Below are positions 17,795 through 22,857 of a stretch of DNA of 64,000 nt, piece by piece. The translations under genes and the position numbers were made by a program. Below the pieces are notes generated by a model. That model was not told the DNA's origin. It did not search any database and saw only the letters and a list, made by a program, of their open reading frames with translations. The stretch comes from Anaerococcus porci (GTDB lineage Bacteria > Bacillota > Clostridia > Tissierellales > Peptoniphilaceae). How positions within the stretch are numbered: the first letter of the stretch is position 1; each line of letters opens with the position of its first letter. Where the stretch lies: assembly GCF_009696575.1 (NCBI RefSeq), contig NZ_VULQ01000002.1, forward strand, positions 124,001-188,000, given 5' to 3'.

Positions 17795-17821
17795 TTAGCA
17801 GTCATACATCTCAACTGCTAA
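17795..17821 (-). promoter_or_regulatory. CIRCE-like operator (HrcA) of hsp20
   Basis: Inverted repeat with the classic 9-N9-9 spacing: TTAGCAGTC - 9 bases - AACTGCTAA. Compared with CIRCE (TTAGCACTC-N9-GAGTGCTAA), position 7 of the left arm and its partner in the right arm are swapped together (C to G, G to C), so symmetry is kept. It starts at the predicted transcription start. HrcA binding is an inference. Confidence 0.7.
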
Positions 17822-17825
17822 TATT

Positions 17826-17854
17826 AATATACTATGAAGGTCAGAGAAAGTCAA
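17826..17854 (-). promoter_or_regulatory. hsp20 promoter
   Basis: Minus strand: -35 TTGACT (17854-17849), 17-base spacer, -10 TATATT (17831-17826). The CIRCE-like repeat overlaps +1. Confidence 0.8.
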
Positions 17855-17864
17855 ATTTAAATTT

Positions 17865-17897
17865 AAAAAAAACGCAATTATTGGAAATTACGTTTTT
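17865..17897. terminator. Bidirectional terminator inside the left direct repeat
   Basis: A8, then stem CGCAATT / AATTACG with a 6-base loop, then T5. In the other copy the stem reads CGCAAGT / ACTTACG: both arms changed together, supporting a real hairpin. For minus-strand transcripts it would end the two-component/ABC operon about 440 bases past its last gene. Confidence 0.75.
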
Positions 17898-18337
17898 ACA
17901 AAAGATAAAAGCATATCTAATATGACTGTGATAAACATTTATTCCTAGAAAAATTGATACTATATTATAAAAATCTTTCCATAATTCCATAAGCTATTAC
18001 CATATTAACTAATATCGTTTATTAAAATTAGAGTCTTATATAAATTCTAAAAAAATCTTACCCACTTGCTCATTTATAACAATTAACGGTGATATATAGT
18101 GAACTAACAGCTTAAAAATCCATCTCATAGCTGATTATTATATAGTCTAATTTAGGATATCAATTAAGATACGATTTTCCAGCAGTTTTTTCGATATGAT
18201 TTATTATTTAAATACTTATCTCCTTCTTTTTCCATTAATAGAATGAAGATTTTGTTTAAGATAGACTTGAAAATTTTATTATCAACTGATTACCTAATTA
18301 TGTATTAATATCTTCTTAATTAATTGTAAAATGATTT

Positions 18338-18931
18338 TTACATAACTGGATTAATGTATCCAATTTCCATTGCTTTATTATAAGCTTCAACTATATTCTT
18401 GGCTCTCAACTTATCATAGATATTAGCTATATGATTATAAAGAGTTCTCTCGCTTATGAATAACTTCTTTGCAATCTCCTTTTTACTTTCTCCTTTTATT
18501 AACTCTTTTAATACTTCTATCTCTCGTTTTGTTAGAGGATCAGCTATATATTTGTCTATTATCTTATAGTTTCCTTTATATACATTTTTGATTCTTTCTA
18601 ATAGTTCGTGGGTTTCTACAGACTTATTTATAAAATCTTTTACTCCTAACTTAAAGGCCATATCCTTGTAATTATCTAAATCATAAGATGTTAAAACTAT
18701 TATCTTTTGTTTGGGGTTATCAGCTAGCAAATCTTTAATTAAATCAAGACCAGTCTTATCATCTTTTAGATTTATGTCAATTAAGAAAATATCATAAGTT
18801 TCTTTTTTTATCATTTTTAGAAACTCTTGAGCTTTTGATACATAAGCACATGAAATTTCATCTTGCTCTTCTAAAAGCATCTTAAGGGACTCCCCAAATA
18901 TTTTATGGTCATCTAACAAAATAATTTTCAT
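18338..18931 (-). CDS. LuxR/NarL-type response regulator
   Basis: A 197-residue response regulator. The receiver domain (1-115) has the acidic pair LLDDH, the phospho-acceptor Asp in FLIDINL (about residue 52) and the lysine in INKS. The output domain is a LuxR helix-turn-helix (LTKREIEVLKELIKGESKKEIA, residues about 132-190). It overlaps the kinase gene by 23 bases, starting from GGAGGTGG within it. It is the last gene of an ABC-permease-permease-kinase-regulator operon, so it probably controls that operon or the small peptide gene at 22369-22452. Binding sites are not proven. Confidence 0.93.
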   Translation of the reverse strand: MKIILLDDHKIFGESLKMLLEEQDEISCAYVSKAQEFLKMIKKETYDIFLIDINLKDDKTGLDLIKDLLADNPKQKIIVLTSYDLDNYKDMAFKLGVKDFINKSVETHELLERIKNVYKGNYKIIDKYIADPLTKREIEVLKELIKGESKKEIAKKLFISERTLYNHIANIYDKLRAKNIVEAYNKAMEIGYINPVM

Positions 18932-20069
18932 CTCTTTCCACCTCCAAGGAAACTTTAGTTGTAAGTATATCCTTATTTAATCCATAAGAAATATTTCCTG
19001 AATTTGAATCTATTAATAGATTAAGAAGCAAAACTCCTCTTTTTGATTCCCTAATTTTATTAAAATCAACAAGACTTGCGCCATCACTTTCCATCTCTAT
19101 ATAAACAAGATTTCCTTTTTTATAGAGCTCATAAGATAAATATTTCGCATCGGAATGCTTATATACATTATTTATAAGTTCCTTTGATATTATTGAAATC
19201 AACCTAATTAATTTTTTATCTTCTGTTAAATCACTATAGATAAGTTTAGTAATTTTAATATTTTTATTTGGATATAAAGAAGATACATTATCAAATATTG
19301 CAGATAATGATGTTTCCAGATTAGCTTTTTCAAATAAAGAAGACTGATAGAATTTCATTATATTTCTTGCTTTCTTTTCAAGACTAGTCAAAATCTTTTT
19401 TGAATATTCTATATCAGGATTTTTGGAAGAAAGGTAATTTTTACTTGCAAATATATCTTGGATAATATCATCATGGATAATCATTGCAAATTCATCTCTT
19501 TCACTCGCCATATAGTCTGACAGGTAATAAAGTTTGAAAGTTTTCTCAAAAGCTAATTCTTTTTCCTTTAAAAATAAGATAAAGAAAAATTCTGTAATAA
19601 GGAAAATTATTTGGATAAATATATTTATCATTACCGTATCTATATCAAATAAATAAATCACCACAAAAATAAAAAATACAAGTCCAATAGTAAATATTTG
19701 GGTGGATTTTCTAGATATAGGCAAGATATTTATATATTTTACATTATCTAAAATTATGTATCTTTTAATAAATAGGCTTGTTGAGATAAGACTTATAAGA
19801 AAAAAGGCAAGCTTATAAGGTAAATCATTTATTAGAATCAAACCCAAAGGCAAAAGTGACGAAAAAATTACCAAAACAGAAAATCTTTGAGGTATTTTTT
19901 TATTTGAAATTTCTGTGTATATAAGTCCATATAAAGTAAAAACTAAAATAAGTGAAACTGCATTCAAAATCGGGCCTTCTTTTACTAACATCTTGTTTTT
20001 AAAAAGAAGACCCCAAAATAAAATTATCATTAAATGGCTGATCACAATTTTTTCTAATTTCTTATACAT
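18909..20069 (-). CDS. Membrane sensor histidine kinase, HisKA_3 (NarX/DesK-like) type
   Basis: A 386-residue kinase. Roughly the first 175 residues hold six or so hydrophobic segments with short loops and no large extracellular domain. The phospho-acceptor box MIIHDDIIQD (about residue 200) is the HisKA_3 motif. The ATP-binding domain has the N box ELINNVYKHSDA (about 300) and a G-box-like end. Kinases with a bundle of membrane helices and no sensor domain often sense peptides, envelope stress or a partner transporter. It starts 3 bases after the permease stop without a clear ribosome site, so it is probably translated by coupling. Confidence 0.92.
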   Translation of the reverse strand: MYKKLEKIVISHLMIILFWGLLFKNKMLVKEGPILNAVSLILVFTLYGLIYTEISNKKIPQRFSVLVIFSSLLPLGLILINDLPYKLAFFLISLISTSLFIKRYIILDNVKYINILPISRKSTQIFTIGLVFFIFVVIYLFDIDTVMINIFIQIIFLITEFFFILFLKEKELAFEKTFKLYYLSDYMASERDEFAMIIHDDIIQDIFASKNYLSSKNPDIEYSKKILTSLEKKARNIMKFYQSSLFEKANLETSLSAIFDNVSSLYPNKNIKITKLIYSDLTEDKKLIRLISIISKELINNVYKHSDAKYLSYELYKKGNLVYIEMESDGASLVDFNKIRESKRGVLLLNLLIDSNSGNISYGLNKDILTTKVSLEVERDENYFVR

Positions 20070-20072
20070 ATC

Positions 20073-20711
20073 TCAATAGTAGCTAACTACAATCCTTTCT
20101 TTATTGATATTTATACCCAAAAATACTATTATTGATCCTAAAATCAAAAGCTTAGTCATCAAGTAGCAAAGCAAGGAATTTGTAAAATTATATACTAGGA
20201 CAGAAGATATCATGACTACTAAGGATAGTCCTATCAAGCGAATTTGGAGAGAATTTACTTTATTCATGTTTATAGTACCAAGTATTATCAAGACGATTAT
20301 TAGACTGTAAAGAAAACTTGATACAATCAAATTTAAAATAATAATTAAGCTAATCTCAAGTTTTAGTAAATTTAATATTAAGCTTGGAAGAACTATAATT
20401 AATGTTCCTAAATAGATACTAAACAAATATTTGGCTAGAATTTTTTTCATAGAAAATCCATTTGCAAGTAAAAATTCAAGCTTTTTGCTAATTTTATCTG
20501 CTACCAAGGTATTTTTAGCGAGTTCTATTCCAAAAATCAGGAAAAGTATTACAATCCCATCAATTTTAATTATATCTATAATATTGTTTATTTCTTGGCT
20601 TCCTTCATCAGTAAAAAACAGAGCCATAAAGGAGCAGATAAGTGCCATAATCGACATTAATACGGCATTTTTATCTAAAAGCTTTCCTAGATCATCAATA
20701 ACTAATTTCAT
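20073..20711 (-). CDS. ABC transporter permease (ABC-2 / lantibiotic-immunity-like), second of two
   Basis: A 212-residue protein with about six hydrophobic segments and no other motif, typical of an ABC-2-like permease subunit. ATG 20711 is preferred over the in-frame 20717 because it forms an ATGA overlap with the preceding permease stop. A short cytoplasmic loop (KISKKLEFLLANGFSMKKI) closely matches a loop in the neighbouring permease (DKLNKRIEFILASGVDIKDVI), so the two subunits are paralogues and likely form a heterodimer. This arrangement is that of LanE/LanG immunity pumps; exact substrate unknown. Confidence 0.8.
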   Translation of the reverse strand: MKLVIDDLGKLLDKNAVLMSIMALICSFMALFFTDEGSQEINNIIDIIKIDGIVILFLIFGIELAKNTLVADKISKKLEFLLANGFSMKKILAKYLFSIYLGTLIIVLPSLILNLLKLEISLIIILNLIVSSFLYSLIIVLIILGTINMNKVNSLQIRLIGLSLVVMISSVLVYNFTNSLLCYLMTKLLILGSIIVFLGININKERIVVSYY

Positions 20712-21421
20712 GACCATGACCCTTCTTTATTAATTACAGATTCATTGTTTATCTTGCTTAAATCTTTCATGGACGAGATTGCAAAAATTAATCCCAATCC
20801 TAGATTTATCCCTAATATTATATAGATAAGGTTTAGATTATATTTTTCTATTAAAGAGAGAATCTTCTCTGAAAATGTGCCTATCATGTAAATTAAAATT
20901 GTTGTTCCAAAGAAAACTATATTTTTGAAAAACTTAAAGTTTTTTTGGGATAAACTTATAATATTAAAAAATAGTATTTCAAAATATGTCATTCCTATCA
21001 TTGTCACAAATATACCCACAATCCACTTAAATTCGATTTGAAAGTCTACTAGGACATAAGTTAGAAAAAACAACATAAAGGGAACAATGGAAGATAGTCT
21101 CCACATTTCTACCCCATAGGCTTTAATCACATCTTTTATATCTACTCCTGATGCTAGAATAAATTCTATACGTTTATTTAATTTATCCTTGACTGTTAAA
21201 TTGACAACCATAGAATTAGACATAATTAGTGAAATTCCAAGCATTAGTACATATAGCATTAATATAATATAATCATTTCCTCTTGAATCAAAGATCCCCT
21301 TATATAGTAAAAAAATAAAGCCAAGGGAAATCAAAGTAAATAATAATAAATTTAAAATAAAATCCCTGTCTTTACTTAAATAGTAGCGACAAGCCCTATT
21401 AATATTCATCTTATTTTTCAT
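20708..21421 (-). CDS. ABC transporter permease (ABC-2 / lantibiotic-immunity-like), first of two
   Basis: A 237-residue integral membrane protein with about six hydrophobic helices. The N-terminus (INRACRYYLSKDRDF) is cytoplasmic and basic. The loop with RIEFILASGVDIKDVIKA resembles the coupling-helix region of ABC-2 permeases and is repeated in the partner. Start and stop overlap the neighbours by 4 bases (ATGA), so the three ABC genes are tightly coupled. Together with the ATPase upstream it forms a complete exporter or immunity pump. Confidence 0.8.
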   Translation of the reverse strand: MKNKMNINRACRYYLSKDRDFILNLLLFTLISLGFIFLLYKGIFDSRGNDYIILMLYVLMLGISLIMSNSMVVNLTVKDKLNKRIEFILASGVDIKDVIKAYGVEMWRLSSIVPFMLFFLTYVLVDFQIEFKWIVGIFVTMIGMTYFEILFFNIISLSQKNFKFFKNIVFFGTTILIYMIGTFSEKILSLIEKYNLNLIYIILGINLGLGLIFAISSMKDLSKINNESVINKEGSWS

Positions 21422-22080
21422 TTTCTACCTTCCTCTATAAATAAATCTTCTAAGCTTTCTCCCTTTATTTCGTCTATATTCTTCGAAAAAAGTAGCTCTC
21501 CTGATTTTATCATGGAAACCTTATCTGCTACTTTTTCAATTTCTGACAGGTCATGACTAGTAATTACTATGGTCTTACCTTCATCCTTTAGTAATTTTAT
21601 GAGCTTTCTTATCTCAACTCTTGATATTGGATCTACTCCGCTAGTAACCTCATCTAAAAATATTATCTCTCTATTCATCATTACAATAATTAGTAAAGAC
21701 AATTTCCTCTTCATACCTTTAGAATATGTAGAAACATTTCTACCCAGATCATTTGTAATTTCTAACAAGTCAGAATATTTTTGATAATTATCTAGACCAT
21801 ATCCAAAATATAATCCATATATCTTAATATTTTCAAGTCCTGTCTTATCCTCATACAAATAGTCATTTTCAAGAAGCATTGTATGATTTCCCTTAACTTT
21901 AACTTCTCCATCATCTTTGTCATATAGTCCAGTTAGTATTCTTAAAAGAGAAGTTTTCCCAGAACCATTAGGACCTACTATTGCATGGACTGTATTTGCC
22001 TCAATTTCTATAGAAAAATCATTAAATAACTTTTTACTTTTGAAATTTTTGCTCATATTTTTAACTTCAATTATATTCAT
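21418..22080 (-). CDS. ABC transporter ATP-binding protein
   Basis: A 220-residue ATPase. Walker A is GPNGSGKTS (about residue 37), the Q-loop is replaced by HTMLLENDYLYED, the signature region reads YSKGMKRKLSL (rather than LSGGQ), Walker B is IIFLDEVTSG and the H-loop is TSHDL. This YSKGMKRKL form is typical of drug/peptide exporters and LanF-type immunity ATPases. First gene of the ABC-kinase-regulator operon; AGGAGACT precedes ATG 22080. The upstream gap holds a weak terminator (22309-22340) and the peptide gene. Confidence 0.92.
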   Translation of the reverse strand: MNIIEVKNMSKNFKSKKLFNDFSIEIEANTVHAIVGPNGSGKTSLLRILTGLYDKDDGEVKVKGNHTMLLENDYLYEDKTGLENIKIYGLYFGYGLDNYQKYSDLLEITNDLGRNVSTYSKGMKRKLSLLIIVMMNREIIFLDEVTSGVDPISRVEIRKLIKLLKDEGKTIVITSHDLSEIEKVADKVSMIKSGELLFSKNIDEIKGESLEDLFIEEGRK

Positions 22081-22308
22081 ATAAATAGTCTCCTAAACTT
22101 ATAATTTAATTTATTATTAAACTACCCACAATTTTTAACATTAGGAACTCAGTCTTTCATCTGATAAAAAATTATACTTATTATTTATATTTGTAATGAC
22201 TTTATTTAATTTTTTAAAATCTCTCATAGTTTTTAATAAGAGCTTATAATAATTTTTTAATATCTTTATATCTGAGACTACATAAATAAGATTTTAAATC
22301 TAATTTTT

Positions 22309-22340
22309 GTAAAATAAAAGTCTTCTATTTATCAGAAGAA
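22309..22340 (-). terminator. Weak terminator after the small peptide gene
   Basis: Minus strand: stem TCTTCT / AGAAGA with a 7-base loop, followed by CTTTTATTTT. It lies about 30 bases after the peptide stop and 230 before the ATPase start. Partial read-through would give much peptide mRNA and less transporter mRNA, the usual pattern in peptide loci (inference). Between 22081 and 22308 I see nothing else convincing. Confidence 0.55.
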
Positions 22341-22368
22341 AGCTACAAATTCAACAATTCCATCAAAT

Positions 22369-22452
22369 TCAATGAGAGTTGGTACTAAAAATAAACATAC
22401 AGAACGAACATAGCTTAGAACCATTTCCCATTGCTACTATTTCAGGTTTCAT
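22369..22452 (-). CDS. Small CxxC peptide of 27 residues, possible peptide pheromone or RiPP-like precursor
   Basis: I found this by reading the gap in front of the ABC operon. ATG 22452 follows an excellent ribosome site (AAGGTGGTGAAAAT). The peptide begins MKPEIVAMGNG, continues SKLCSFCMFIF and ends STNSH before TGA. The Lys-Pro-Glu start, the Gly pair and the Cys-x-x-Cys in a hydrophobic core would suit a short leader and a modified or cyclised core. A weak terminator follows, then ATPase, two permeases, kinase and regulator on the same strand. I do not recognise the family. No modification enzyme or protease is nearby. It could instead be a regulatory leader peptide. Confidence 0.5.
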   Translation of the reverse strand: MKPEIVAMGNGSKLCSFCMFIFSTNSH

Positions 22453-22628
22453 ATTTTCACCACCTTGTAGTCTTATTTTATTTCATCCTAAAGTTAAATA
22501 CATGAGTAAATACTGCAAACTTTATAAAAAATAGTAAATAGTGCTACATTTTTTCTAAAAAAACATCTGAAAACTACTATTTCCAATGTATTTCAGAACT
22601 TTTACAAATTAAAAGTATAATAGTTGAT

Positions 22629-22857
22629 ATATTAATATAGTATGAAAATTAGAAAATATTAAATTTAAACTAAAAAAACGCAAGTATTGAAACTTACGTT
22701 TTACAAAAGATAAAAATATATCAAATATGACTATAATAGACATTTATTACTATAAGATTAATACTATATTATAAAAATCTTCTTATAATTTCACCAAACC
22801 TTACCCATATTAACTAATATAGTTTAATATTATGCTATCAAAACTTATATAATAATT
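22629..22857. repeat. Direct repeat, right copy (pairs with 17821-18048)
   Basis: Same orientation and same internal order as the left copy: the TATATT -10-like box, A-run, hairpin, then a shared AT-rich segment. The -35 position reads TTAATA, so the promoter has decayed, and the CIRCE-like operator is absent. It ends about 30 bases before the stop of the GspE-like gene. The two copies bracket the two-component/ABC/peptide module. Confidence 0.85.
22672..22702. terminator. Bidirectional terminator inside the right direct repeat
   Basis: A7, stem CGCAAGT / ACTTACG, 6-base loop, T4. It lies about 190 bases after the end of the GspE-like gene on the minus strand and would terminate the rluD-comM-gspE transcript. 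Stem covaries with the left copy. Confidence 0.75.

Follow-up and report, generated by a model that had tools for sequence, protein, structure and literature searches.

The 27-residue open reading frame (ORF) that precedes an ABC transporter/two-component operon in the window (the whole 64,000-nt stretch of Anaerococcus porci DNA analyzed here) is very probably a dead gene, once the first of seven in a sactipeptide-type bacteriocin cluster, of which an inducible ABC efflux/immunity operon remains. Sequence comparison demonstrates the homology, the gene order, the decay, a shared promoter element and an insertion site. Because the window peptide is a broken remnant and intact relatives keep it in front of the same genes, the shield has probably outlasted the weapon in this bacterium. 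What the window retains is the remainder of a cluster of known kind, one for a radical SAM-modified bacteriocin-like peptide, of a family without a Pfam or NCBIfam model.

The initial annotation had placed the ORF, with a near-perfect ribosome-binding site (RBS), ahead of genes for an ATPase, two permeases, a kinase and a LuxR-type regulator. We confirmed this placement: AAGGTGGTGAAAAT lies immediately 5′ of the ATG, 288 nt separate the ORF stop from the ATPase start, and the downstream genes follow in that order. The ORF is not, as had been supposed, a complete 27-residue gene but the N-terminal half of a frame-broken gene of a 41-aa type. The remains are as follows.

22450-22466, minus strand: RBS and start codon of the peptide relic, read from the sequence, with the counterpart AAGGAGGTGAGAATATG in a relative
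22369-22452, minus strand: 27-aa ORF MKPEIVAMGNGSKLCSFCMFIFSTNSH, the N-terminal half of a decayed five-Cys peptide precursor, similar to intact 41-aa peptides
22332-22391, minus strand: C-terminal half of the precursor in another frame, FLVPTLIEFDGIVEFVAFF followed by a stop, aligning with CGPSPAAGVGVAGFVGFF and CGPSAIAAAGAAGFVGFF
22077-22260, minus strand: 184-nt relic of a radical SAM maturase gene, with gene positions about 894-1036 joined to about 1304-1362

Over residues 1 to 19 or 22, the ORF showed 68 to 79% identity to peptides in three other Peptoniphilaceae genomes (Anaerococcus and Ezakiella), with E values of 5e-5 to 2e-4 per genome, a similarity that exceeds chance. Peptide matches ranked below the first four had E values of 0.016 or worse, near chance, and were left out; the best of them (L005) sits in antisense of another gene. 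Neither the ORF nor its surroundings had a useful match in Pfam, NCBIfam or Rfam, the lone Rfam match at the ORF region being a microRNA model that scored far under its gathering score. The weak terminator that had been placed after the ORF did not hold up. The hairpin at about 22318-22338 consists of the ancestral peptide's C-terminal and stop codons and was no better than shuffles (z = −0.85), and a terminator scan found none there. The sole terminator-like site in that scan lies upstream of the ORF.

22677-22700, minus strand: intrinsic-terminator-like hairpin upstream of the operon promoter (terminator scan; z = −4.8 against shuffles)

The intact peptide of A. prevotii has 41 residues (MKPEIVAMGNGCKLCAGCTGCMFCGPSPAAGVGVAGFVGFF), with five Cys spaced by three. 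Next comes a radical SAM/SPASM protein of 453 aa, and after it the ATPase, the two permeases, the kinase and the LuxR regulator. We found such seven-gene clusters on the A. prevotii plasmid pAPRE01 (G006), in Anaerococcus sp. 9403502 (G024) and in Peptoniphilus timonensis (G184). The same seven genes in identical order are present in a MAG (L065) and in Blautia luti and B. wexlerae (L067 and L069), where the peptide is MNPSISPMGNGCKLCAGCTGCMFCGPSAIAAAGAAGFVGFF. The maturase is 90% identical in the MAG and 63% identical in Blautia, in which permease 1 is 39% identical. The intact precursors have a short leader, a CxxCxxCxxCxxC-GP[ST] core and a hydrophobic Gly/Ala-rich tail; in alignment they are short and Cys rich, with the Cys in the N-terminal half, as in sactipeptide-type precursors. 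Wherever an undamaged peptide was found, a radical SAM maturase separated it from the ATPase.

The intact precursors matched nothing in Pfam or NCBIfam at E values up to 10, a PDB search with the 41-mer gave only spurious Cys-rich matches, and viral contigs held nothing beyond distant radical SAM fragments. No publication was recovered when the core motif was searched in full text, and the accessible portions of the literature that links sactipeptides or subtilosin to Anaerococcus, Peptoniphilus or Blautia do not describe the five-Cys family. On pAPRE01, which is typed as conjugative in PLSDB, the peptide is annotated as a “hypothetical protein” (WP_012797179.1). Located a few kilobases upstream of the five-Cys cluster (L019, 2429-4262; NC_013164.1, about 100440-102261) is a second radical SAM bacteriocin cluster, with a RumMC-type maturase and an “Apre_1838 family putative sactipeptide bacteriocin,” so that one conjugative plasmid carries both. 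A more distant peptide-maturase pair occurs in G247 (L111, 2561-4137), with a Cys-rich 45-aa precursor (...CGPTP); its maturase has an apparent in-frame stop and is possibly another decaying copy.

The best NCBIfam match of all five maturases compared was AlbA, the subtilosin maturase (3.7e-29 for A. prevotii and 3e-36 at best), and the best PDB match was SkfB. The A. prevotii enzyme scored about 101 bits against the AlbA model, which has an equivalog cut-off of 850, and because the similarity is this distant the cross-link type could differ from AlbA's. Radical_SAM and SPASM domains were found in all five maturases and an N-terminal PqqD-type domain in three, and CxxxCxxC is present in their alignment; a maturase with these domains adjacent to the precursor is the arrangement of a sactipeptide-type cluster. 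We infer thioether chemistry on the Cys-rich core by this AlbA-like radical SAM enzyme.

In the window, the frame of the peptide gene is broken, with the N-terminal residues in one frame and the C-terminal half in another, ending in a stop. The score of FLVPTLIEFDGIVEFVAFF against the conserved tail was reached by 0.05% or fewer of 2,000 shuffles. The first 11 residues are identical to those of the intact relatives, the first Cys (Cys12) has become Ser, and most of the other cysteines are gone. SboA mutants in which donor Cys residues are replaced by Ser or Ala are no longer substrates of AlbA (reviewed in PMC8172795).

Positions 22126-22260 aligned with the maturase DNA of A. prevotii and G024 at local scores of 111 to 115, against a maximum of 52 in 300 shuffles, and 22077-22125 aligned with the maturase 3′ end and are now the ribosome-binding region of the ATPase gene. 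The relic pieces join at a 9-bp repeat, AAAATTGTG, copies of which lie at 1028 and 1304 of the intact gene, as would result from the loss of 276 nt between these direct repeats within the maturase gene. Since relatives have a maturase and the window retains a 184-nt scrap of one between peptide and ATPase, the lack of a nearby modification enzyme, noted earlier, reflects loss rather than a minimal system. No other maturase of the five-Cys cluster type matched at 1e-20 in the window genome, which is 99.8% complete, and the AlbA model gave radical SAM matches there that were all weak. A maturase acting in trans was considered and rejected, with no close candidate found elsewhere in that genome. 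The window copy has neither the intact precursor nor the maturase of a sactipeptide-type cluster.

Comparable damage was found in two other operons. The Ezakiella peptide (G051) has one Cys changed to Phe, beside a truncated maturase. In G175, MKSKIIAPRNYCKLCAICTIY and the last maturase bases are kept; the window and G175 operons are sisters in the tree (support, 0.86).

These lesions bear on two readings in which the peptide would still be functional. The initial annotation had suggested a minimal peptide-signal system without an enzyme, in which the kinase senses a secreted, unmodified CxxC peptide of 27 residues. The good RBS, the intact start codon and the operon promoter directly upstream speak for such a system, as do residues 1 to 11, which are the same as in the intact relatives. 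We nevertheless regard it as highly improbable: the frame breaks inside a conserved gene and puts the C terminus in another frame, the maturase relic adjoins the ORF, no relative has the 27-residue form, and peptide and maturase have decayed jointly in G051 and G175. It is scarcely credible that the break was introduced in sequencing or assembly and that a peptide of the 41-residue type is really intact and matured by another enzyme. The break does fall within a T-rich run, and both halves are otherwise recognizable, but the window carries independent lesions (Cys12 to Ser, fewer cysteines and large maturase deletions), and its nearly complete genome has no other close AlbA-type enzyme.

Unlike the peptide and maturase genes, the five operon genes in the window are all open.

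21418-22080, minus strand: ABC transporter ATPase (Pfam ABC_tran, 8.7e-21)
20708-21421, minus strand: small membrane permease 1, from hydropathy; no family match, 86 to 97% identical in eight other family operons
20073-20717, minus strand: small membrane permease 2, from hydropathy; no relevant family match
18909-20069, minus strand: sensor kinase with a membrane-embedded N terminus (weak NarX/LiaS-type match, H-box, hydropathy)
18338-18931, minus strand: LuxR/NarL-type response regulator (Response_reg, 1.2e-20; GerE, 3.6e-20)

The last two form a LuxR/NarL-type two-component system, with a receiver and GerE helix-turn-helix in the regulator and a membrane kinase whose H-box is HDDIIQD. The kinase had been described as lacking a sensor domain; it has no extracellular domain, but its first ~170 residues form hydrophobic membrane segments. 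Pairwise dN/dS values against five relatives were 0.04 to 0.14 for the ATPase and regulator, 0.12 to 0.21 for the kinase and 0.09 to 0.40 for the permeases, consistent with continued selection on all five genes, although pairwise values also span the time before the cassette was lost. The likeness of the operon to immunity with sensing was well observed, and the ABC genes would serve in export or immunity and the membrane kinase in sensing. Membership in LanFEG proper failed: the ATPase scored 151.2 bits against a cut-off of 309.75, and the permeases had no LanE- or LanG-type match.

The promoter of the operon lies upstream of the ORF.

22501-22519, minus strand: TTTGCAGTATTTACTCATG, conserved promoter element and putative operator of the LuxR-type regulator (TTGCAG and TTACTCA invariant)
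22475-22480, minus strand: −10 box, TAAAAT, at a fixed distance from the element (columns 30 to 35, TA-AAAT, conserved in 23 aligned promoters)

TTGCAG-N3-TTACTCA was found at identical spacing in all 23 operons compared, with or without a peptide, and the −10 box follows about 20 bp on. The element lies 5′ of the peptide where there is one and otherwise 5′ of the ATPase or of a small membrane ORF. A scan of 130 family genomes gave 28 copies of the exact 18-bp pattern TTGCAGWNWTTACTCATG, spread over 23 genomes, and none of the reversed control. It was present in 18 of the 19 operon-bearing genomes, the remaining one (G175) having it with one change. The simplest reading is that the element is likely the binding site of the LuxR-type regulator. 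This common promoter element and the same gene order in relatives bear out the earlier view that the peptide belongs with the operon.

Five genomes in which no operon was detected also have TTGCAGWNWTTACTCATG. Among these operon-less genomes, it precedes an ATPase remnant in G011, a decayed-looking locus in G186 and short ORFs in G081. In G159 and G080 (L124 and L125), which are of the same genus as the Ezakiella genome and have no operon, it stands before a large ABC exporter-like gene. At L118 (G014:C50, 34311), the same operator-like element is followed by an ORF whose C terminus resembles another radical SAM maturase fragment and then by another ABC ATPase; the regulator may here have a second peptide cluster under its control, again a decayed one. 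The element also precedes a very short coding stretch, MLYENPHRYKNGD, on pAPRE01 (L143, about 112291), and in G081 (L130) it is followed by a similar stretch, NYKNPRRYKNGD, without a clear start; the two may represent a short ORF that is conserved, or else a remnant. In one genus, a membrane ORF of 49 to 53 aa (MKYLTLSNIIIFVGIYIFAS...) is conserved between the promoter element and the ATPase, within about 250 nt of the latter (L057 to L060 and L062, in G176, G052, G178, G184:C4 and G177).

The window operon has inserted between pilB and uppS; these two genes adjoin each other, as an empty site, in G009 and also in G018, a more distant genome. Two copies of a 205-bp repeat, 81% identical to each other, flank the operon and are possibly a trace of its insertion.

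22629-22829, no strand assigned: direct repeat, upstream copy
17821-18024, no strand assigned: direct repeat, downstream copy

The window genome has these two copies and none elsewhere, which rules out a dispersed mobile element.

We surveyed 130 family genomes and found 21 operons. Three have an intact peptide and maturase, one has a peptide minus one Cys and a truncated maturase, two (those of the window and G175) have peptide relics, and 15 have no such peptide. Set against the test proposed with the initial annotation, conservation of the peptide in relatives that keep the operon, most of the family operons are without it. The A. prevotii chromosome has a second, peptide-free copy of the operon besides the plasmid cluster, and in the tree, cassette-free operons nest inside the cassette-bearing clade.

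We propose that the AlbA-like radical SAM enzyme of an intact cluster would cross-link the five-Cys, short-leader precursor, and the ATPase and two permeases would export the peptide, clear it from the membrane or both. The membrane kinase and LuxR-type regulator would sense the peptide or the membrane damage that it causes, and the regulator would then activate the shared promoter through TTGCAG-N3-TTACTCATG. This scheme, built from the gene content, supposes antibacterial activity of the peptide, immunity and binding of the regulator to the operator. In the window, the operon lies between pilB and uppS, the peptide no longer has Cys12 or an unbroken frame, and deletion has removed the greater part of the maturase gene; what is left would be an inducible ABC efflux/immunity operon with a leader of ~390 nt that holds the wreck.

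The relic ORF might have been retained as a translated upstream ORF that tunes the ABC/regulator operon, the peptide itself being irrelevant. It does lie in the inferred 5′ leader with a strong RBS and start codon, but the hairpin after it is no better than shuffles, and the cassette-free operons (L049, L050 and others) have no leader ORF, their ATPase following a short way past the −10 box; we consider this retention very unlikely. The purpose of the operon is a separate matter. With most family operons lacking a peptide, its underlying function may lie in resistance to peptide antibiotics generally, or in stress, and not in dedicated immunity. It would then be a general cell-envelope/peptide-antibiotic stress module, at no time dedicated to immunity, with the peptide-maturase cassette a guest that came and went repeatedly between operator and ATPase. 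This reading is compatible with a relic ORF and disputes only what the operon is for. The 15 peptide-free operons with the same promoter element, the peptide-free chromosomal copy in A. prevotii and the cassette-free operons within the cassette-bearing clade speak for it; the full seven-gene order in the distant Blautia, which argues for an old dedicated association, and the cassette that the window certainly once held speak against it. We take it as a serious possibility, on balance doubtful. Tentatively, and at a little short of an even chance, we see in the operon a mobile immunity module that is induced by peptide, has a fixed operator of its own and is retained by nonproducers against the five-Cys radical SAM-modified peptides of their neighbors. 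If so, the window would show a natural “immune cheater” state, its dead weapon still legible in the leader, with a source of the neighbors' peptides such as the conjugative pAPRE01.

With the ORF read as a dead first gene, an odd short ORF becomes a readable loss-of-weapon event, and the peptide family of WP_012797179.1 can be assigned a maturase, transporter, sensor and operator, each of them probable. Together with the contrast among producers, damaged producers and immune-like nonproducers, the predicted operator makes the idea of the immune nonproducer testable in anaerobic commensals. The case is also a warning that relics can appear as short ORFs with fine ribosome-binding sites.

Compared with known systems, the operon resembles LanFEG in its single ATPase and two small permeases beside a two-component system, and TIGR03740 is the best NCBIfam match of the ATPase. 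It differs in that the window ATPase scores half the family cut-off, the permeases are unmatched, and the partner of the five-Cys operon is a radical SAM cluster, with no lantibiotic genes there. The RumMC/ruminococcin C-type cluster near the five-Cys cluster on pAPRE01 is also for a radical SAM-modified peptide but has another maturase family, a 65-aa precursor and other Cys spacing. Estercticin A of Clostridium estertheticum (core sequence as printed in PMC8792950) and other type I sactipeptides share the five-Cys core spaced by three and the hydrophobic Ala-rich tail; estercticin A is without the GNGCKLC start and the CGP motif, and the likeness is one of Cys spacing and tail rather than shown homology of precursor or maturase. 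Against subtilosin A of Bacillus subtilis (sboA-albA...; PMC12300986 and PMC8172795), the intact relatives have five evenly spaced Cys in place of three Cys donors, an additional LuxR-type two-component system and a maturase well under the AlbA equivalog cut-off; no gene for an AlbE/AlbF-type peptidase, the kind that serves in head-to-tail cyclization of subtilosin A, was seen between precursor and regulator in the intact clusters, and in the window both precursor and maturase are dead. The two systems share a small precursor whose leader is very short and whose Cys lie in the N-terminal half, an AlbA-like radical SAM/SPASM maturase with a PqqD-type N terminus, and an ABC transporter in the cluster.
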